From NCBI GenBank assembly GCA_947066105.1, contig CAMSYM010000007.1:1-64000 (forward strand): a stretch of 64,000 nucleotides of DNA. The letters run 5' to 3'. Of the stretch, positions 1 through 57,381 are shown one piece after another. Source of the stretch: an uncultured Clostridia bacterium (GTDB lineage: Bacteria; Bacillota; Clostridia; Christensenellales; Pumilibacteraceae). The first letter of the stretch is position 1. Each line of letters opens with the position of its first letter. A program made the position numbers and the translations under genes. The notes under the pieces are model-generated. The model did not search any database and was not told the origin of the DNA. It saw only the letters and a program-made list of their open reading frames with translations.

Positions 1-155
1 AAATAAACGAGTTCTTGGCGAAGTACGGTTTTACCAAAGTGCAACTCATTGAAGCAGGATTTAAGGCTTTAATTGACGAAGCGGCGGAAACGGACACTTC
101 TCTTGCCAAGACAATGGACGGCTACGACGATTTCTTCGTATCGGAGAAAAAGTAA
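1..155 (+). CDS. C-terminal end of an unrecognised protein (partial)
   Basis: An open frame (codons from base 3) runs in from the window edge and stops with TAA at 153-155, giving about 50 residues that end in SEKK. The visible part is a mixed-charge, probably helical tail. I do not recognise the family. It precedes a TnpW-like ORF and a large serine recombinase in the same direction, so it is most likely cargo of the same mobile element. Confidence 0.5.
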   Translation, partial: INEFLAKYGFTKVQLIEAGFKALIDEAAETDTSLAKTMDGYDDFFVSEKK

Positions 156-28212: not shown

Positions 28213-28641
28213 TCATTTTTGTTTTACTCTCGACATAAACGTCGAAACGATCATGGCGATAACGCCTACCGCAAACACCGCCGAAAACGCGACCGCGAGC
28301 TTTGCGTTGCCGCCGACGAAGTTGACCTCGTTTATGATGTCCGAATAGGATTCCAAAGCGGGGCAAAGTTGCAGACCGAATCCCACCGAGCACAGCGCGA
28401 CCGACACGATCGGCACGAACTGCCAATCGAACAGTACGTCGAGCGTCATGAACAGCGCGCCGACGAGTATGAGCGCGAAGGCAGTCGCCGAAAAAGTCAC
28501 GTCGTCGCCTACATCCAAAGCGATGTACAGCACGTCGGCTACGAGCAACACCGCCGCCGCGGCAAGCCCCAGCCAAAATCCCGCCGTCCTGTCCTTGAAC
28601 AATTGCAAGCGACATTTATTCTTTATCCATTGCGCCGTCAT
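28213..28641 (-). CDS. Small four-helix membrane protein
   Basis: A 142-residue protein with a short basic N-terminus and about four hydrophobic segments (about 22-42, 48-70, 72-92 and 112-135), ending in SRVKQK. I do not recognise a family. Its ATG lies inside the last 26 bases of the GH3 gene upstream, in another frame, six bases after a full AAAGGAGG located in the GH3 coding sequence. This strong site and the shared terminator make it the last gene of the lipoprotein-GH3 operon. A role in anchoring or exporting the GH3 protein is conceivable but unproven. Confidence 0.8.
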   Translation of the reverse strand: MTAQWIKNKCRLQLFKDRTAGFWLGLAAAAVLLVADVLYIALDVGDDVTFSATAFALILVGALFMTLDVLFDWQFVPIVSVALCSVGFGLQLCPALESYSDIINEVNFVGGNAKLAVAFSAVFAVGVIAMIVSTFMSRVKQK

Positions 28642-31615
28642 TATCGCCCTCCTTTTTACGTTTTTCGTCGAGAACGATACTCGCTATCATCATGCCGAGC
28701 GCCGCCGCCGCGACTACGCCGAGCACGACCGTGACCGCCGTAATTGCGGGCTTCCACCACGGCGTGAACTCCGTGTCCTCCATCTCCGCCGTCATTCCGT
28801 TGATAAGGTTGGAGCGCGACATTGCGTAGAAGAACCGCTTGTTAGCCGTACGTATCGCCTGCAAAATGTTACCGTCTTTTTGCTTGACCGCATACGCCTT
28901 GATCTCCGAACCGCTTGCGCTACGCGCGTTGAACGTGTCCGTTCCCGCCGCCAAGCACGCGATCGTCGGATTGTTATTGGCTTGCCAGCCCGCAACGGAG
29001 TCGGTAATGTTTACGCCCTTAAAGCCCCACTCGTCGCGCAACACGTCGGTCAACAATTCTTTCGTAGCGTACAGGTTTTTGCAACCGACACGCGTGAACG
29101 ACATCATCGTGGCGAGCGCGCCGCCCTTTACGAACGCACCCTCAAAGCCCTTTAACGGACCTTGACGCAACGCTTGTTCCGTCCAGAATTGACATACGTC
29201 GCCGCGGTTGGTTTCCTGATCGTTGCCCATAAAATGCTTGGGCGCGGCATTGCAACCCTTTTTCTGCATCGCTTCGCATTGCACGGCGGAGCAAATATAA
29301 GTCATCACCGCGTCCTCGCTGTAATACTCGAAATTACGTCCCGAGAACGGCGTTCTGTGAAGATTGCATCCCGGCGACCATATCTGCGTAGTGCCGCCGA
29401 ACAGGCAATCCTCGGCGATAAAGTCGCCGCGCGACGCTATGAGCTCCTTATTGAAAGTCGACGCCGCAACGACTTCGTTGACGCGTACGGTCGGAATTCC
29501 TCGCACCGTTTTTCCGACATAACCGTTTTGCGGACCTGCGGGGCCGTCGCAGTTATTGTTGGCGTTTTTGCCGACGGCGGCGACAGCGGGCTGACCGAAG
29601 TTTTCGCCGAGCATGGCGCACATATCGCTGACCGAAAGCTGATCTATAAACGTTTCCCAACGCGGGTCGTCAAACGGCACGTCGCGCATTTCCACGAGTT
29701 TAAGCGTAACGTCCGCACCCTGAGTAAAGCTGCCGTATGACGGCGCGTCGCTCGGTTTGACATATGTTTCGCTGTTTGCCATGGACGCTTGCATCGCCGC
29801 TGTGAACGGAAGCGAATCGTATGTCACGGGGAACGTGTTCCAGTCCGCGCGCGTCATATACGTAACGGTGTCCGCGCCCAAAAGCTTATTTACGTCTATT
29901 ATGTCGCCGAACCGATTGCACACGACCACCGTTTCGCCCGACTCGTCGCTCGTAGCATACGTCGTATTGTCGTACGCGTCGAGCTTAACGATCTTCGCTT
30001 TTTCCGCATCGCCCGCAACGGCGTTGCCGCTACGGTCGGTCATGCCGACAGCGCCCTGCGCGGCAAGCACGTTATTGAGCGCGTCGTGACAGTCGTCGCC
30101 TATCGCGAACGCATAATCGCCCGCATCGAAAACATAGCAACCTTTTTTTGTCGCGTCCGCGCCGTTAGTCGCGTTCTCGTCGTACGTCGCGAAAATGTAG
30201 TCCGAAAATTCGAGCTCGACGGTATCGCTCTCGCCTGCGCCGAGCAGCTCGGTTTTTCCGAAGTCGACGAGCTGTATCGCCGATTTTTCGGCTTGACCAT
30301 GTTCCCACGGCAACGACGCGTAAAGCTGAACGACCGATTTCGACTTGCCGCTATACGCCGTGCCGCCGGGATACCCGTTGTGAGTGACGGTAACGCTCGC
30401 TTTTACGGTGTGCGTAGCTTTATCCCATACAAGGCTGTCCAGAGTTTGAGTAAAACGCGCGTAAGACAGACCGTAGCCGAACGGATACGCTATTTCCGCC
30501 GCATAATCCCACTCGTCGCCCGCATATGCGCCCTTTTCGGAAGTCGCGTTGTGCAAGCCTTTTACTTGATCGTAATAGCGCGTTTCGTAATACTTATAGC
30601 CTACGTATATCCCTTCCGCCTGCACAAGCACGCCCATGGACGATTTATCCGCAAATGTTATATCGCCCGAGTTTTGCGCCGCCGCGCTCGACAGCGAATC
30701 CGTCGCGTAAGTATCTACGAAATGCCCCGACGGATCCGCGTCGCCGGCAAGTATCGCGCCTACTCCGTCGAACCCTACGACGCCCGGTCCGCCTATCCAA
30801 AGACATGCGTCAACGCCGTATTCTTCGTCGTCGACGAATCCGAGCTCCATGGGATACGCGCTGTTGATGATCACGATCGTTCGTTCAAACTTGCCCGACG
30901 CTTTTATCATCTTCAACAGATCGGCTTCTTCCTTATGCAACGCCAACTGCGAAACGCCGTCCGCATCGTTCATGAACAGATCGCGTCCTTCGCCGGCGTC
31001 GCGCGCAAACAATACTATCGCGGCGTCGTTGTAATCGCTCGCATAACTCGACGCATACGCGTCGTAAAAGCTTACCGGCACCTCGCCGATCGACGATTTT
31101 ACGCCGTCGTCGTTTTCGACCGCGACCTTTACGCGCCGCACGGGGCTTGCCGCAAGCGCGTCGTACACCGTCGAGTTGACGGTAAACCCGTGATTTTCGA
31201 GCGCCTTCTTAAAGTTTATTTGCCTGTCGGCTTGGGCTTCCATGTTCGGTCCGCCCGAATTGCCGCGGTAAACGGGGTCTGCCGCCGCCCGTCCGAACAG
31301 CGTCACGCGCCGAGCGGACGACGCGACGGGCAAGGCGTTATCGGCGTTTTTCACAAGCACCGCGCCTTCCTTCATCGTTTCCTTTTCGTTCGATTCGGAC
31401 GCTTCGCGCATTTTAACGTAACCGTCGTCGTCGCGCGTATAGTCGCTCGCGTAATAATTGGTGTCGTCGGTAACCTCTTGCGTCGGCGCCTTGATGCCGA
31501 GCGCGACGTTTACCTGACCTTCCCACTTTACGAGCAACGTGAACAGCGACGCTACGACCGCCGTCAAAAACGCAAACGTTGCGCATAAGCCGCGCCACAG
31601 TTTGGTTTTAAACAT
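28616..31615 (-). CDS. Membrane-anchored GH3 glycosidase, swapped domain order (GH3-1)
   Basis: A 999-residue GH3 protein (beta-glucosidase/xylosidase superfamily). The domains are circularly swapped: an N-terminal helix (about 8-30), then the normally C-terminal alpha/beta sandwich (about 60-370) and Fn3-like domain (PFGYGLSYARFTQ, about 370-510), and only then the TIM barrel (about 650-920). The barrel has RNFEYYSEDA, KHFMGNDQETNR and the candidate nucleophile Asp in GVNITDS, where DW/DY is usual. A C-terminal helix (about 945-975) and basic tail follow. The protein is thus tethered at both ends, with the catalytic part outside. AGGGAG precedes the ATG. Substrate unknown. Confidence 0.88.
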   Translation of the reverse strand: MFKTKLWRGLCATFAFLTAVVASLFTLLVKWEGQVNVALGIKAPTQEVTDDTNYYASDYTRDDDGYVKMREASESNEKETMKEGAVLVKNADNALPVASSARRVTLFGRAAADPVYRGNSGGPNMEAQADRQINFKKALENHGFTVNSTVYDALAASPVRRVKVAVENDDGVKSSIGEVPVSFYDAYASSYASDYNDAAIVLFARDAGEGRDLFMNDADGVSQLALHKEEADLLKMIKASGKFERTIVIINSAYPMELGFVDDEEYGVDACLWIGGPGVVGFDGVGAILAGDADPSGHFVDTYATDSLSSAAAQNSGDITFADKSSMGVLVQAEGIYVGYKYYETRYYDQVKGLHNATSEKGAYAGDEWDYAAEIAYPFGYGLSYARFTQTLDSLVWDKATHTVKASVTVTHNGYPGGTAYSGKSKSVVQLYASLPWEHGQAEKSAIQLVDFGKTELLGAGESDTVELEFSDYIFATYDENATNGADATKKGCYVFDAGDYAFAIGDDCHDALNNVLAAQGAVGMTDRSGNAVAGDAEKAKIVKLDAYDNTTYATSDESGETVVVCNRFGDIIDVNKLLGADTVTYMTRADWNTFPVTYDSLPFTAAMQASMANSETYVKPSDAPSYGSFTQGADVTLKLVEMRDVPFDDPRWETFIDQLSVSDMCAMLGENFGQPAVAAVGKNANNNCDGPAGPQNGYVGKTVRGIPTVRVNEVVAASTFNKELIASRGDFIAEDCLFGGTTQIWSPGCNLHRTPFSGRNFEYYSEDAVMTYICSAVQCEAMQKKGCNAAPKHFMGNDQETNRGDVCQFWTEQALRQGPLKGFEGAFVKGGALATMMSFTRVGCKNLYATKELLTDVLRDEWGFKGVNITDSVAGWQANNNPTIACLAAGTDTFNARSASGSEIKAYAVKQKDGNILQAIRTANKRFFYAMSRSNLINGMTAEMEDTEFTPWWKPAITAVTVVLGVVAAAALGMMIASIVLDEKRKKEGDNDGAMDKE

Positions 31616-32432: not shown

Positions 32433-33722
32433 TTATCCGACGTTCATCACGATGTCTATATTGAAAATATCGTCGTCGATATTCGTATCCGTAACGCCGC
32501 CGTACTTTTCGGCGACGCGGCGAATGCTCAACAAGCCGTAGCCGTGTTCGACTGCGTTTTGTTTGCTCGTTTTTATAAGCCCGCCGTCCGTGCGCTCCCG
32601 GCTTTGTCCGTCGAAATAGTTGTCCGAATGCACTTTGACGAGCTTGCCGTTTTTGCGCACCGAAAGCGAGATGTGCCGTTTTTCTTCGGGCAGCGCCGCC
32701 ACCGCTTCGATCGCGTTGTCCATTATATTGCCGAACAGCGAATATATATCGAGCTTGCTAAGCCCGTCGAGCGCCGCGCCGTCCGCCGTGACGGCAAGCT
32801 TGATATTCTTGCTGTCGCAGTACAGGCTTTTTTCGGTAAGCACAAGGTCGAGCGTGTCGTTGCCGGTCGCCACGATGCCGTCGTAAATGTTCAACGATCT
32901 TTCTATCGCTTTCATGTCCGACTTCATGTCCGCGTCGGCAAGCGCCGATCTCACAAGCTTTTTCAGATCGTGACACTTGGTGTTTATAACGTCTATCGTT
33001 TCGCGCGAAATTTCGTACTGCTCGCGCCGCTGTTTTTCCAATCGAGTCATGACTTCTATCTCGTTGCGGTAGCGATCGGTCTCGAACACGTTGTAAAGCA
33101 AAGTCAAATTGGCGATACAGCACATTATGTCCAAAGTCTTTACTATGTAGAACTCCGAACTCATCACGTCCGTATACACCGACACCGCGCTGAAAGTAAC
33201 GTTCAAAAGCACGGCGGGGATCAACAGTTTTTTCTTTTCCAAGTCGACGAGCGCGCCCTTTACGCAAAAACGCATGAACAACGCGACAGCCGTAATACAC
33301 ACAACGTCCATGGTAAACGATATGGCGAAATACGCCGCGCTGTGCGGCGCGAAAAATATGCCCATTATATCTATGTTTGCGGCTTGCGCAATAACACGCC
33401 CGACAGAGCTTCCCAAGTGCTGCACAGTCCAGCCGAACACCGTATAAAACACCGCCTCGAAAACCGTACAGCGGTATAAACCGAAAACGAACGCGCTCAG
33501 CACGATAAACAGCAAAATGTCGACAAGACATATGACGTACTTTTCCTGCGTCTTAGCCCACGTCCATAAAAAGTATCCGCCTACCGATATGGCGATAACA
33601 CCTATTATCAATGCGGGGACGAAAAACTTGCGTTTTTCGAGCCACATCGTGCCGACAAGCGTATACGCCAACAGCATGGGGACAAAACCGACGGCGAAGT
33701 AAAACTCGATCAAGGCTTGCAA
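32433..33722 (-). CDS. AgrC-like GHKL sensor histidine kinase
   Basis: A 429-residue sensor with six or seven N-terminal membrane helices (about 1-215), a coiled linker, a phospho-acceptor region KCHDLKK (near 250) and a GHKL ATPase with N-box NIMDNAIEAV and G-box HGYGLLSIRRVAEKYGG. This is the AgrC/VirS-type, normally paired with LytTR regulators. The first possible codon is TTG at 33722, preceded in frame by TAA. Its only ribosome-site-like sequence is the 11-G tract five bases upstream. The partner regulator lies directly upstream. The stimulus may be a peptide or a GH3 product; that is inference. Confidence 0.88.
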   Translation of the reverse strand: MQALIEFYFAVGFVPMLLAYTLVGTMWLEKRKFFVPALIIGVIAISVGGYFLWTWAKTQEKYVICLVDILLFIVLSAFVFGLYRCTVFEAVFYTVFGWTVQHLGSSVGRVIAQAANIDIMGIFFAPHSAAYFAISFTMDVVCITAVALFMRFCVKGALVDLEKKKLLIPAVLLNVTFSAVSVYTDVMSSEFYIVKTLDIMCCIANLTLLYNVFETDRYRNEIEVMTRLEKQRREQYEISRETIDVINTKCHDLKKLVRSALADADMKSDMKAIERSLNIYDGIVATGNDTLDLVLTEKSLYCDSKNIKLAVTADGAALDGLSKLDIYSLFGNIMDNAIEAVAALPEEKRHISLSVRKNGKLVKVHSDNYFDGQSRERTDGGLIKTSKQNAVEHGYGLLSIRRVAEKYGGVTDTNIDDDIFNIDIVMNVG

Positions 33723-34443
33723 TTATACCCCCCCCCCCGCCGCGTTTGCCCCAAAACGCGACCACGGCTTCCATCAATGCTTTGCGCTTATACCTGCTTA
33801 TGATAAGCTCCTCGCCGTGTACCGTCACCATATTGTCGGTCACGCCCTCGATATAGCGCAGGTTGACAAGATAACAACGGTTGCACGCGACAAAATCGTC
33901 GCCGAGCTGTTCCGCCGCGGTTTTGAGCGTGCCGAACACTTTAAACTCGCCGCGCTCTGTGTGATATATGATGTTATGCTCGAAGATCTCCACATAGTGG
34001 ATATCGCGCTCGCTCACGCTCACGGCATCCGCACCGTTTTTGATGACGATGTATTTTTGTCGGTTAGCCAAGCTGTATTTGACGGCTTTTTTCATTTTCA
34101 ATGCAAACCCGTAATAATCGACGGGCTTTACCATAAAATCGAGCGCATCCACGTCGTAGCCTTTGAGCGCGTAGCGCGCGAGCCGAGTGACGAATACGAG
34201 CGCCGTGCCGTCGTCCGTTTTACGTATCGTGCGCGCCGCTTTCATACCGTTGACGCGCGGCATTTCTATATCCAAAAATATGATATCGTATTTGGGTTCG
34301 TAGTCCTTTATTATCTCGTCGCCGTCGCTAAACACCGCGACGTTATACGCTTCCGATAACGGGTGTTCGCAGAAATACCGATCGATATATCCTTTGAGTA
34401 TATCCGACTGCTCGCGCTCGTCGTCCACTATCGCTATATTCAT
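33553..34443 (-). CDS. LytTR response regulator, reading frame altered at a G-tract
   Basis: The receiver domain (about 1-120, DDE, phospho-acceptor Asp in IIFLDIEMP) is followed by a LytTR DNA-binding domain (about 130-235: YIVIKNGADAVSV...DFVACNRCYLVNL...GEELIISRYKRKAL). The normal end is near KRGGGG. As written, the 11-G tract (33728-33738) carries the frame through into the kinase gene, adding about 57 residues of out-of-frame sequence to 33553. With 10 G the frame would stop at TAA immediately before the kinase TTG; with 12 G it stops six codons after the tract. GGGAGA precedes the ATG at 34443. LytTR regulators bind direct repeats upstream of targets. Confidence 0.88.
   Translation of the reverse strand: MNIAIVDDEREQSDILKGYIDRYFCEHPLSEAYNVAVFSDGDEIIKDYEPKYDIIFLDIEMPRVNGMKAARTIRKTDDGTALVFVTRLARYALKGYDVDALDFMVKPVDYYGFALKMKKAVKYSLANRQKYIVIKNGADAVSVSERDIHYVEIFEHNIIYHTERGEFKVFGTLKTAAEQLGDDFVACNRCYLVNLRYIEGVTDNMVTVHGEELIISRYKRKALMEAVVAFWGKRGGGGGIIASLDRVLLRRRFCPHAVGVYACRHDVARKTQVFRPRIDNRCYRHIGRRILFMDVG
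33728..33738 (-). repeat. Homopolymer tract of 11 G at the regulator-kinase junction
   Basis: Eleven C on the plus strand, G on the coding strand. It sits at the last codons of the LytTR regulator and five bases before the kinase TTG start. Its length decides where the regulator frame ends, and it may also serve as the kinase ribosome-binding site. Candidate slipped-strand switch or an assembly length error. Confidence 0.75.
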
Positions 34444-34501
34444 CACGCACTCTCCCGTTAGGTATTAGTAACGGCTTGCCGACGCGCCGTATGCAAGTGA
34501 A

Positions 34502-34530
34502 ATTATACCATATTCGTCAGCGATTGTCAA
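34502..34530 (-). promoter_or_regulatory. Promoter of the regulator-kinase operon
   Basis: Minus strand TTGACA (34525-34530), 17-bp spacer, TATAAT (34502-34507), about 60 bases before the regulator start. Confidence 0.85.
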
Positions 34531-34622: not shown

Positions 34623-37600
34623 TTATTCGTTATCGGTCTTGCTCTCGTCGGAAGCGGCGGACGCGTTTTCGGTCGCGGACGCTTTTTTGAGCGCGCCGCG
34701 GATCGCAAAGAATCCCCAAACGCCTATGCCTACCGCTACCAAGCAATCGACCGCTATCGTAAGTATGCGCCACCATTCCATTCTGTACCCGACGATGTCG
34801 ACGTTTACCGAGTTGCTGTTTGCGACGGTGTACAAAATATTCTTCGCCGCGGTGCGCAGTACTGTAACGTCCTGCGCGCTCGACGCGCTCGCATCCGTCC
34901 ACATAAGGTTGGTCAGCGACGCGAGAATAAGGTCGTTGCCCGCATACAGCATTTGCCGCGAATCCATGAACGAGTTATCCGTTTTGTAATCGCATATGGC
35001 AAGCCCGCGGAAGCCCCACTCGTCGCGCAGTATTTGCGTCATCAACCGATAGTCGCCGCCCGTCCAGCGCGTGCCGATACGGTTGAACGAACTCATGATG
35101 CCGGTAGTGCCGCGGAACTGTTTTATGCCGTCCGCCTTAGCGGTCGCCACCGCATCGGGATCGTCCAAGCCCTTGACGGCTATCTCGAACGGTTTTAAAT
35201 ACAGCTCGCGAAGCGCCTGCTCGGTGCAGTACGTGGCTATGCCGCTGCGGTTGGTCTCCTGATCGTTAAGCGCGAAATGTTTGAGATCGGTATAAACGCC
35301 CTTAGTCATCGCGCCGTTTACCACGTTTACGGCGAGCTTGCCCGACAGCACGGGATCTTCGCTGTAATATTCGAAGTTACGCCCCGAAAACGGACTGCGG
35401 TGCAGATTAACCGCGGGCGCGTACCAGCCGCTGTACGGAAGGTGGTTGCCGTTCACGTCGCCCCACAAACCGTTTTCGCCGACTATCTTGCCCATACGGT
35501 ATGCAAGGTCCTTGTTCCAGGTCGAGCCGATGACTATCTCGCAAGCGAACGTCGTATTGCCGACGTACGACGAGCTTTTGCCGGGCATGAAGTTTACAAA
35601 CCCGATAGGACCGTCGCTGTCGTTGGTAAGGTTCTTTTTGATGCTCATTATCGCGCTCGTTTGGAACGCGCCGTTGTTGACGAGATCGAGCATTTCGTCA
35701 AACGTAAGCCTGTCGAGCAAAATTTCCCAGCGCGGATCGTCGAAGTCGGCTATGCCGTTTTCGTCGACGAGATCGCGGAGTATTATCGGACGCTTGGTAA
35801 CGTTGCCGTTTTCGTCCTTGACTTCCACGGTGTTCTCGGTCTTGCCCGTCGTCGGCGGCGTCGTTACGTCGCCTATCCACGGATTGTTGTGTCCGCGGTC
35901 GCGAAGCGCCGCGCGCTCGGACGAGCCGTCGTCGAGCATTATAAGCTCGCGCTCTTCCTTGGTCGGCGCTTTGGGGAACGTGCCTGCAAAGTCCGTGCGC
36001 GACATGCCCTTGCGCGCGCCCTTGTACGCGCTCGACGTCACATCCGAAAGTCGGTACTGAACGTCGTTGAAATCGTCGGTAGTAAAGCGGTTTTCCACCT
36101 TGACTTCGGGGTCGACCGTGGAATACTCGAAATACAGGTCGCTCGCAAGACTTACCGTTTCGGAATCGTACGCATACTTTTCGGTATGCGAGTTTGCGGA
36201 AATGATAAACTTGTAGTCGCCGTGTTCGAGTTCGTAACCGCTTATGCCGTTGCCGTTTGCGTCGTTGTAGTCGTACGACGCAAGGCTGTACGCATCCACC
36301 TTGAACGTCACTTCGCACGTCGAGTTTTCGCCTTCTGTCGCGAGCAACGGCGTTTTGGCAAAATCGACAAGCTCTACATGCGATTTTTCGATGCCGCCGT
36401 TATAGTACGGCTTAGTAACGTAAAGCTGAACTACGTCCTTACCCGCGCGACTGCCCGTGTTTTTGACGCGCACCTTGATCGTAAGCTCGCTGTCCTTATC
36501 GGCAAGCTCGCCCGACACTTCGACTATCTCCTGAGTGAACGAAGTATAAGTCAAGCCGTGACCGAACGGGAATATGACGTTTTCCTCGTACCAATCGGCA
36601 TTGTTGCTTTTTTCGACGAACGCGCGGGTCTCGTAGTATCGGTAACCCATGTACACGCCTTCTTCGTACGCGACCATGTAGTTGCCCGCAAGCGGCGAGC
36701 CGTTTTCGAGAAACGCCGAGCCGTTGGCGCCGTCGTTTACCTGCGAGTTGTCGCCGAAGTTTTGCCACGTCGGATCTTTGGTGAAATCGCGCGAGTATAT
36801 ATCCACCGTTTTGCCCGACGGATTTACCTTGCCGCTGAGCACGTCGCCGAACGCCTTTGCGCCCGTCGTTCCCGGACCGCCTATCCACAGCACCGCGTCT
36901 ATGCGTTTATCGGTCTCGGTGTTGTTGTACTCGTCAATAAAATCGCACTGGAACGCCGTGAGCGTGTTGAGTACGACTATCACTTTGTCGAACCGCGCCG
37001 TCACCATGTCGAGCATTTCGTACTCGTTTTTGTCGAGCTGTAAATAATGATTGCCGTCTATGCCGCCGTTCTTGACGTTTTGCGAACGCGGAAGATCCCA
37101 GCTTTCGCCGCCCATGCGCGAGATTACGACTATCGCCGCGTCGTGATAATCTCGGAACGATCCGCGCACCGCCGCCGTATACTTGGATACGGGCGTTTCG
37201 CCGATGTCGAGCGTGGGCGCTTCGGACGAGCCTTCGGTAAGTTCGGGACTCGCCGACCTGCCGTTGCCCGACGCGCCGTTGTCGTCGTAAAACTTTTTGA
37301 GCGTGGGGTTATACTCGAACCCGCCTTTTTCCAGTCCGTCGTATATAGTGGCGGCGTTCTCGCCGCCTATACCGCCCGAACCCGATCCGCCGAGTACGAG
37401 ATCGACCGAGTTTTTGCCGAACACCGACACCTTGGGCTTGACCGAAACGTTTTTGTCCGATTCGGGCGTGGCGATGGGCAACGCGCCGTTCTCGTTCAAC
37501 AGCAAGGTAAAGCCTTCCTCGGCGATACGGACGTTAAGCTCGTCCCCCGCCGCCTTGCTGTCCGCCTTGCTGTCATAGTCCGATTTGTATATCTCCACCG

Positions 37601-37769
37601 CGTCGTCGCTCATTATCGGCATGGGACCGCCGAGAACCGTCGACAGAATGGGATACAGCAATGTGTTTTCGAGTACTGTGAGCGTTATGAACAACGCCAG
37701 CAAAAACGCCGAGATCGCCGCCCATATGATCGTGCCTTTTCTTTTGAATACCGCTTTGAATTTATTCAT
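34623..37769 (-). CDS. Membrane-anchored GH3 glycosidase, swapped domain order (GH3-2)
   Basis: A 1048-residue protein with the same swapped order: N-terminal helix (about 13-45), alpha/beta sandwich and Fn3-like domain (PFGHGLTYTSFTQ near 400), then the TIM barrel (about 680-970) with RNFEYYSEDP, KHFALNDQETNR and the nucleophile motif GLAICDYKT. A C-terminal helix (about 1000-1022, WWRILTIAVDCLVAVGIGVW) and an acidic tail follow. Gly-rich GGSGSGGIGGE lies in the first domain. It starts 11 bases after the InlB-repeat gene (GGCGGTG as a modest ribosome site), so it is in that operon, and ends at the hairpin 34553-34584. Substrate unknown. Confidence 0.88.
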   Translation of the reverse strand: MNKFKAVFKRKGTIIWAAISAFLLALFITLTVLENTLLYPILSTVLGGPMPIMSDDAVEIYKSDYDSKADSKAAGDELNVRIAEEGFTLLLNENGALPIATPESDKNVSVKPKVSVFGKNSVDLVLGGSGSGGIGGENAATIYDGLEKGGFEYNPTLKKFYDDNGASGNGRSASPELTEGSSEAPTLDIGETPVSKYTAAVRGSFRDYHDAAIVVISRMGGESWDLPRSQNVKNGGIDGNHYLQLDKNEYEMLDMVTARFDKVIVVLNTLTAFQCDFIDEYNNTETDKRIDAVLWIGGPGTTGAKAFGDVLSGKVNPSGKTVDIYSRDFTKDPTWQNFGDNSQVNDGANGSAFLENGSPLAGNYMVAYEEGVYMGYRYYETRAFVEKSNNADWYEENVIFPFGHGLTYTSFTQEIVEVSGELADKDSELTIKVRVKNTGSRAGKDVVQLYVTKPYYNGGIEKSHVELVDFAKTPLLATEGENSTCEVTFKVDAYSLASYDYNDANGNGISGYELEHGDYKFIISANSHTEKYAYDSETVSLASDLYFEYSTVDPEVKVENRFTTDDFNDVQYRLSDVTSSAYKGARKGMSRTDFAGTFPKAPTKEERELIMLDDGSSERAALRDRGHNNPWIGDVTTPPTTGKTENTVEVKDENGNVTKRPIILRDLVDENGIADFDDPRWEILLDRLTFDEMLDLVNNGAFQTSAIMSIKKNLTNDSDGPIGFVNFMPGKSSSYVGNTTFACEIVIGSTWNKDLAYRMGKIVGENGLWGDVNGNHLPYSGWYAPAVNLHRSPFSGRNFEYYSEDPVLSGKLAVNVVNGAMTKGVYTDLKHFALNDQETNRSGIATYCTEQALRELYLKPFEIAVKGLDDPDAVATAKADGIKQFRGTTGIMSSFNRIGTRWTGGDYRLMTQILRDEWGFRGLAICDYKTDNSFMDSRQMLYAGNDLILASLTNLMWTDASASSAQDVTVLRTAAKNILYTVANSNSVNVDIVGYRMEWWRILTIAVDCLVAVGIGVWGFFAIRGALKKASATENASAASDESKTDNE

Positions 37770-57365: not shown

Positions 57366-57381
57366 CCCCCCCCCAAAAAAA
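57366..57381 (+). repeat. C9A7 homopolymer pair upstream of the HAD gene
   Basis: Nine C (57366-57374) followed by seven A (57375-57381), ending 18 bases before the ATG at 57400. Such tracts can vary in length and shift promoter or ribosome-site spacing. No other promoter element is obvious in the 124-base gap. Confidence 0.5.

Follow-up and report, generated by a model that had tools for sequence, protein, structure and literature searches.

Regulator-kinase pair and its G tract

The window, i.e. the whole stretch of 64,000 nt that was analyzed, carries a response regulator gene followed by a sensor kinase gene, with GH3-family genes (identified by Pfam) on either side. The features of this locus are all on the minus strand:

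33728..33738, minus: G11 tract, which supplies the final in-frame codons of the regulator and also a ribosome-site-like sequence for the kinase
33553..34446, minus: regulator with Response_reg and LytTR domains in the 11-G reading; ATG at 34443; 297 aa, the last 57 of which overlap the kinase start in a different frame
32433..33722, minus: sensor kinase, GHKL-type (HATPase_c_5); TTG start, 429 aa
33723..33725, minus: TAA that ends the regulator with 10 (or 13) G, directly 5' of the kinase TTG
33710..33712, minus: TGA that ends the regulator with 12 (or 9) G, 10 nt inside the kinase gene
34502..34530, minus: consensus promoter TTGACA-17-TATAAT upstream of the regulator, with no poly-G in its spacer
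34623..37769, minus: GH3-family gene upstream of the pair
28616..31615, minus: GH3-family gene downstream of the pair

The tract reads as C11 on the plus strand, i.e. G11 on the minus strand, and its length is that of one draft assembly. A Pfam scan of seven ORFs in the window assigned Response_reg and LytTR to the regulator and HATPase_c_5 (GHKL) to the kinase. The remaining ORFs were three GH3 genes, one with Listeria-Bacteroides repeats and one FGGY carbohydrate kinase.

A preliminary description of this DNA had placed a G run at the end of the LytTR regulator, 5 nt before the kinase TTG, and had predicted where the regulator would end with 10, 11 and 12 G. The coordinates of the tract (33728-33738) and of the TTG (33722-33720) bore out the placement, and reading of the frames bore out all three ends. 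With 10 G, the TAA of the regulator directly abuts the kinase TTG. With 11 G, 57 residues are added past the tract, matching the predicted 57 or so codons out of frame into the kinase gene, and the stop lies 167 nt beyond the kinase start. With 12 G, a TGA follows as the sixth codon past the tract. Truncation of the bvgS type was not found: the LytTR match ends about 28 nt short of the tract, and the kinase start lies beyond it, whatever the length.

The window contained four nine-G matches, three of them in the G11 tract, compared with a mean of 0.13 in shuffled windows; four were reached in one of 100 shuffles. A chance run was ruled out by these shuffles and by the genome-wide concentration of tracts around LytTR genes (see below). 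The window also has a C9 tract on the plus strand (57366-57374), which is followed after 25 nt by an ATG on the same strand (57400). The reading from this ATG begins MERFENILFDLDGT, which we take to be a HAD-phosphatase-like motif.

The pair had further been called a LytTR/AgrC pair. Its domains are those of an AgrC/AgrA-type pair, i.e. a regulator with receiver and LytTR domains adjoining a GHKL kinase. A search for AgrB in the window's genome gave no match, with a weak control (one of 14 genomes positive, below the cut-off). Because no AgrB was found, 'AgrC' is kept as a likeness in domains only. NCBIfam gave no match to the kinase and, among the 25 matches listed for the regulator, none above the cut-off.

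The tract was also supposed to serve at once as regulator tail and as ribosome-site-like sequence of the kinase. Both the frames and the pairing energy agreed with this. The best anti-Shine-Dalgarno duplex at 20 regulator-kinase junctions had a median of -13.1 kcal/mol (-13.5 to -10.2), compared with -7.25 kcal/mol (-14.3 to 0.1) at 54 pairs without a junction tract, where the starts were chosen by rule and some may be wrong. In several of the 54 tract-free pairs a shorter G run occupies this position, and such runs could plausibly have given rise to the tracts. Given a ribosome site of this strength, kinase output may be equal in all length states.

Poly-G tracts in the genome and in the family

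The window's genome (G000; 2.05 Mb in 28 contigs) contained 51 distinct tracts of at least 9 G, 24 of them of at least 10 G. LytTR was matched 20 times, two of the matches being overlapping halves of one locus, which left 19 genes. The surroundings of these matches, taken from 1000 nt upstream to 1600 nt downstream, make up 2.65% of the genome. They held 12 of the 51 tracts (1.35 expected; binomial P 7e-9) and 9 of the 24 longer ones (0.64 expected; P 6e-9). In all 12 LytTR-associated tracts, the G's were on the coding strand.

When all 19 pairs were read, 12 had a tract and seven had none. Seven tracts were at the junction (the window, L039, L045, L049, L050, L052 and L048, the last with the gene order reversed), two were inside the regulator (L053 and L056), and three were in a promoter-like spacer upstream (L043, L046 and L051). 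The single regulator-kinase case of the preliminary description was thus a real arrangement, and at the same time one member of a genome-wide class of junction, coding and promoter-spacer tracts.

Ten ORFs beside regulator-kinase pairs comprised three GH3, one esterase, three Ig-like and three without a match. Among 18 ORFs in or after the other tracts of this genome, 13 had a Pfam match: GH3 (three), GH16, BspA-type LRR (two), a repeat protein, an AraC regulator, a HisKA kinase, ABC transporter (two), an epimerase and a terminase. Coding tracts were seen in GH16, GH3, BspA-type LRR, repeat, AraC-type and HisKA genes (L082, L084, L098, L079, L096, L058, L005 and L094). At L093 (G000:C12:54980-54989), a G10 tract lies 2 nt before an ATG, right after a terminase-like gene; this junction-type tract, which is not part of the two-component family, is perhaps in a prophage.

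At 12 places (L001, L003, L057 twice, L081, L083, L087, L088, L089, L091 twice, and L051:1872), G9-G10 is directly preceded by an interspersed repeat whose last letters are gagatgat, gagatgac or gaaatgat. Because this poly-G repeat family exists, not all tracts are switches, and the idea that every poly-G tract of the genome is one was rejected. Loss of MutS as a cause of the tracts was argued against by the presence of MutS in the genome.

The pattern TTGAC-3..12-G9-TAT occurred at 60 sites, spread over 28 of the 74 family genomes searched; the reversed pattern was present in none of the 74. Six of the sites were in the window's genome (C1:313890, C2:198692, C8:56980, C9:678, C11:57644 and C16:25520). 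The distance to TAT was 11-19 nt, a range bounded by the search pattern. Poly-G between -35-like and -10-like sequences is possibly a family-wide contingency system of the promoter type. A stricter form of the pattern was present in at least 118 stretches of named genomes; many of the matches listed were in Clostridia and Bacilli MAGs, and other phyla were represented too.

LytTR genes are numerous in some of these bacteria: 19 genes in the 2 Mb of G000, and 15-23 matches in six of 100 relatives (G006, G026, G033, G041, G045 and G055). No LytTR match was found in 59 of 101 genomes. The idea that relatives richer in LytTR genes are also richer in tracts was rejected. G041 and G045 had 22 and 15 LytTR matches but three and two ten-G matches, and G015 and G016 had 41 and 66 ten-G matches (overlapping ones counted) with no LytTR match.

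Stops at the junctions and length differences between genomes

To the loci of the window's genome were added 20 stretches from G006, a genome of the same genus, and loci from a kinase search over 101 genomes (L010-L038; L012 was omitted as a duplicate, being the same locus as L069). A further 20 stretches came from G026, G041, G045 and G055. The latter were picked mostly for a tract near the pair, which makes the sample biased; the junction frame test is independent of this bias. The kinase search in the isolate Anaerocaecibacter muris gave no match, an absence that carries no weight.

In total, 24 junction tracts were collected from five genomes in three genera (seven in G000, six in G006, four each in G026 and G041, and three in G045). 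The gene order was regulator-kinase at 21 of them and kinase-regulator at three. At all 24, a change of one unit in length altered the frame in silico. The two kinases nearest to that of the window (L010 and L011, about 40% identical) have no tract and a TAA-ATG junction equivalent to the 10-G form.

The stop of the upstream gene was located with one G fewer, with the tract as assembled and with one G extra, and was called near if it lay before the start of the downstream gene or at most 15 nt beyond it. At 23 of the 24 junctions, two lengths gave a near stop and one overran the downstream start; the exception, L272, had a single near stop. The overrun extended for 43 to 374 nt, save at four junctions where it continued in frame to the end of the downstream gene (about 1341-1350 nt at L052, L076 and L273, and 750 nt at L048). 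As assembled, 17 junctions were in the coupled state and seven overran, which is near 2:1. The overrunning ones (the window, L049, L059, L017, L260, L261 and L266) came from four of the five genomes.

Shuffling of the spacers between tract and start gave stops in two frames at 9.5 of 24 junctions, and the same if at least one near stop was required. When each orthologue group was represented by its first member alone, the count was 17 of 17, and by its last member alone, 16 of 17; about seven were expected. Near stops in all three frames were found at no junction, and seldom in the shuffles either. At tract-free junctions of the same family, two or three near stops were present in 19 of 45 (an odd pair, L036, having been dropped beforehand). 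The difference between 16/17 and 19/45 gave a Fisher P of 1.7e-4, in a comparison where the insertion points differ slightly and the paralogues are not fully independent.

Selection would act on a second-frame stop only if that frame is used. We therefore take this layout of stops, a pattern read from sequence, as evidence of natural frame variation at the tract. It would fit slippage of DNA or of RNA, and a switch or a buffer.

On a tree of 79 kinases, made by a quick method and with several long branches unsure, the junction label required 15 changes, at least nine of them forced by starred branches. Shuffled labels required 17.9 changes on average, and as few as the observed number in 19 of 500 shuffles.

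Comparison of tract lengths with related genomes had been proposed as a check. Between G000 and G006, 5 of 11 tracts of at least 9, comparable over both flanks, differed in run length. Four of the differing runs were uninterrupted (L039, L049, L056 and L058), with differences in adjacent bases too; the fifth (L051) was interrupted by a substitution. Inside the LytTR region of L056, the 10-G tract splits the domain over two frames, and the orthologue L067, with 9 G, has it whole. Short G/C runs of length 4-6 changed in 0 of 66 cases in one comparison, where one of five long tracts changed, and runs of 5-6 changed in 2 of 11 in the other. Because of this disparity, the degree to which long tracts surpass short runs in length change is method-dependent.

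For the window's own tract, the orthologue in G006 (85% DNA identity in the regulator) is broken at a contig end: the contig starts with an Illumina adapter fused to what is left of the tract. Tracts also lie within about 100 nt of the ends of other G006 contigs. Contig ends at or near poly-G, one of them adapter-joined, were seen at L078:1-50, at the ends of L064 and L073, and at the starts of L114 and L118. Tract lengths in draft genomes therefore need care.

Interpretation and comparison with known systems

We interpret the tract as a hypermutable homopolymer at the regulator-kinase joint that tunes their coupling, within a genome-wide poly-G set of the contingency type, and put the probability of this reading at about 0.6. 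Replication slippage would shift the length by single G's, and cells would thereby move between the coupled and the overrun states. In the latter, which is the assembled state in the window, the ribosome would run over the kinase start in another frame. The loss of coupling would alter kinase synthesis relative to the regulator, and the 57-residue tail added to the regulator may alter signaling, which would presumably act on the neighboring glycoside hydrolase genes. The locus belongs to a set of junction, coding and promoter-spacer tracts that is enriched in the two-component family. Counting against this reading are the two nearest kinases without a tract, the presence of MutS, the lack of any relation between tract and LytTR numbers among relatives, the method-dependent result on short runs, the poor assembly of G runs in draft genomes, a kinase output that may be equal in all states, and the 17:7 split, which neutral drift in length would also give.

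A phase switch had been proposed for this locus. Recurrence at 24 junctions, length differences between some orthologues and the layout of the stops lend this partial support, but it would probably not be a clean ON/OFF switch, because the LytTR domain and the kinase frame stay intact at any length. With two of three lengths coupled, the element is a 2:1 device, and its effect would more likely be quantitative than ON/OFF.

These tracts might also be hypermutable without having been selected as a switch. The G-rich ribosome sites of glycine-tailed regulators would then expand by slippage, and the second-frame stop would act as a buffer against overrun. Such an origin would be in line with the G4-G6 runs often present at the same place in tract-free homologues, with the frequent gain and loss of the tract on the kinase tree, and with an overrun share (7/24) near the one in three of neutral length drift. 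It fits poorly with the concentration of tracts in the LytTR two-component family, with the promoter-spacer and coding tracts in that same family, and with the spread over three genera, and we consider it rather unlikely. Errors of length in assembly or sequencing would mean that the true tract is a stable, coupled 10 G and the overrun an artefact. The breakage of G006 contigs at tracts (one with an adapter there), the single assembly analyzed for the window's genome, and the resemblance of the TAA-ATG junction of the nearest homologues to the 10-G form would all agree with such errors. Under one fixed frame, however, the second-frame stops at 23 of 24 junctions would be pointless, and the overrun was assembled repeatedly, in four of five genomes, which makes this explanation improbable.

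Slippage by RNA polymerase or the ribosome at the RNA level, through which one DNA length would yield coupled and overrun products in constant proportion, would likewise favor stops in two frames. The tracts in promoter spacers cannot work in this manner, and orthologous tracts differ in length; we hold it to be very improbable.

The tuning of coupling by replication slippage can be extended to a broader proposal, which is tentative and in our estimate falls somewhat short of even odds. In an uncultured Clostridia lineage, the ribosome site that separates regulator from kinase would have become a slippage device, heritable and biased 2:1, across a paralogous two-component family. Single-G slips would reset the stoichiometry and, at L052, L076, L273 and L048, one of the lengths would fuse the two proteins in a single frame. 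A clone would diversify into many combinations of sensing states governing secreted carbohydrate-active and surface proteins.

The best-known cases of homopolymer phase variation come from a few Gram-negative mucosal pathogens. The signature described here was found across an uncultured Clostridia family and appears to be aimed at sensory systems; several of the affected pairs adjoin glycoside hydrolase or Ig-like genes. Placement at the coupling site of partner genes would tune stoichiometry, not simply turn a gene off. The prediction is that apparently clonal strains are mixtures of sensing states. A literature search over titles and abstract openings, with most subscription papers and all bioRxiv preprints outside its scope, found no description of poly-G tracts at LytTR-kinase junctions.

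In Bordetella bvgS, a poly-C tract (C6/C7) within the coding sequence of the kinase leads to its truncation (PMC1891110). A shift in homopolymer length there alters the whole of the regulation by the two-component system (PMC1891110), and the window tract would be alike in this respect. It differs in its place between the two genes of the pair, where it leaves both conserved domains complete. In Campylobacter jejuni FlgSR, both partners are phase-variable by homopolymer slippage (cited in PMC7677240). The tracts there are A/T tracts in coding regions, with frameshift to OFF (PMC7677240), whereas here they are poly-G at junctions, in many paralogous pairs of one genome.

Promoter homopolymers are described for Bordetella fim2/fim3 (PMC1891110) and for Helicobacter sabA, where the tract is poly-T (PMC2715451). 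As in these, tract length at the TTGAC-G9-TAT sites would change promoter spacing; unlike them, the window tract is outside the promoter, whose spacer is an ordinary 17 nt. GeneTack recorded conserved translational coupling as frame transitions (PMC3711429), and the junctions resemble its clusters in that an upstream stop at a downstream start is a conserved device (PMC3711429). Clusters are sorted there into coupling or phase variation (PMC3711429); here, both would be combined in one element.
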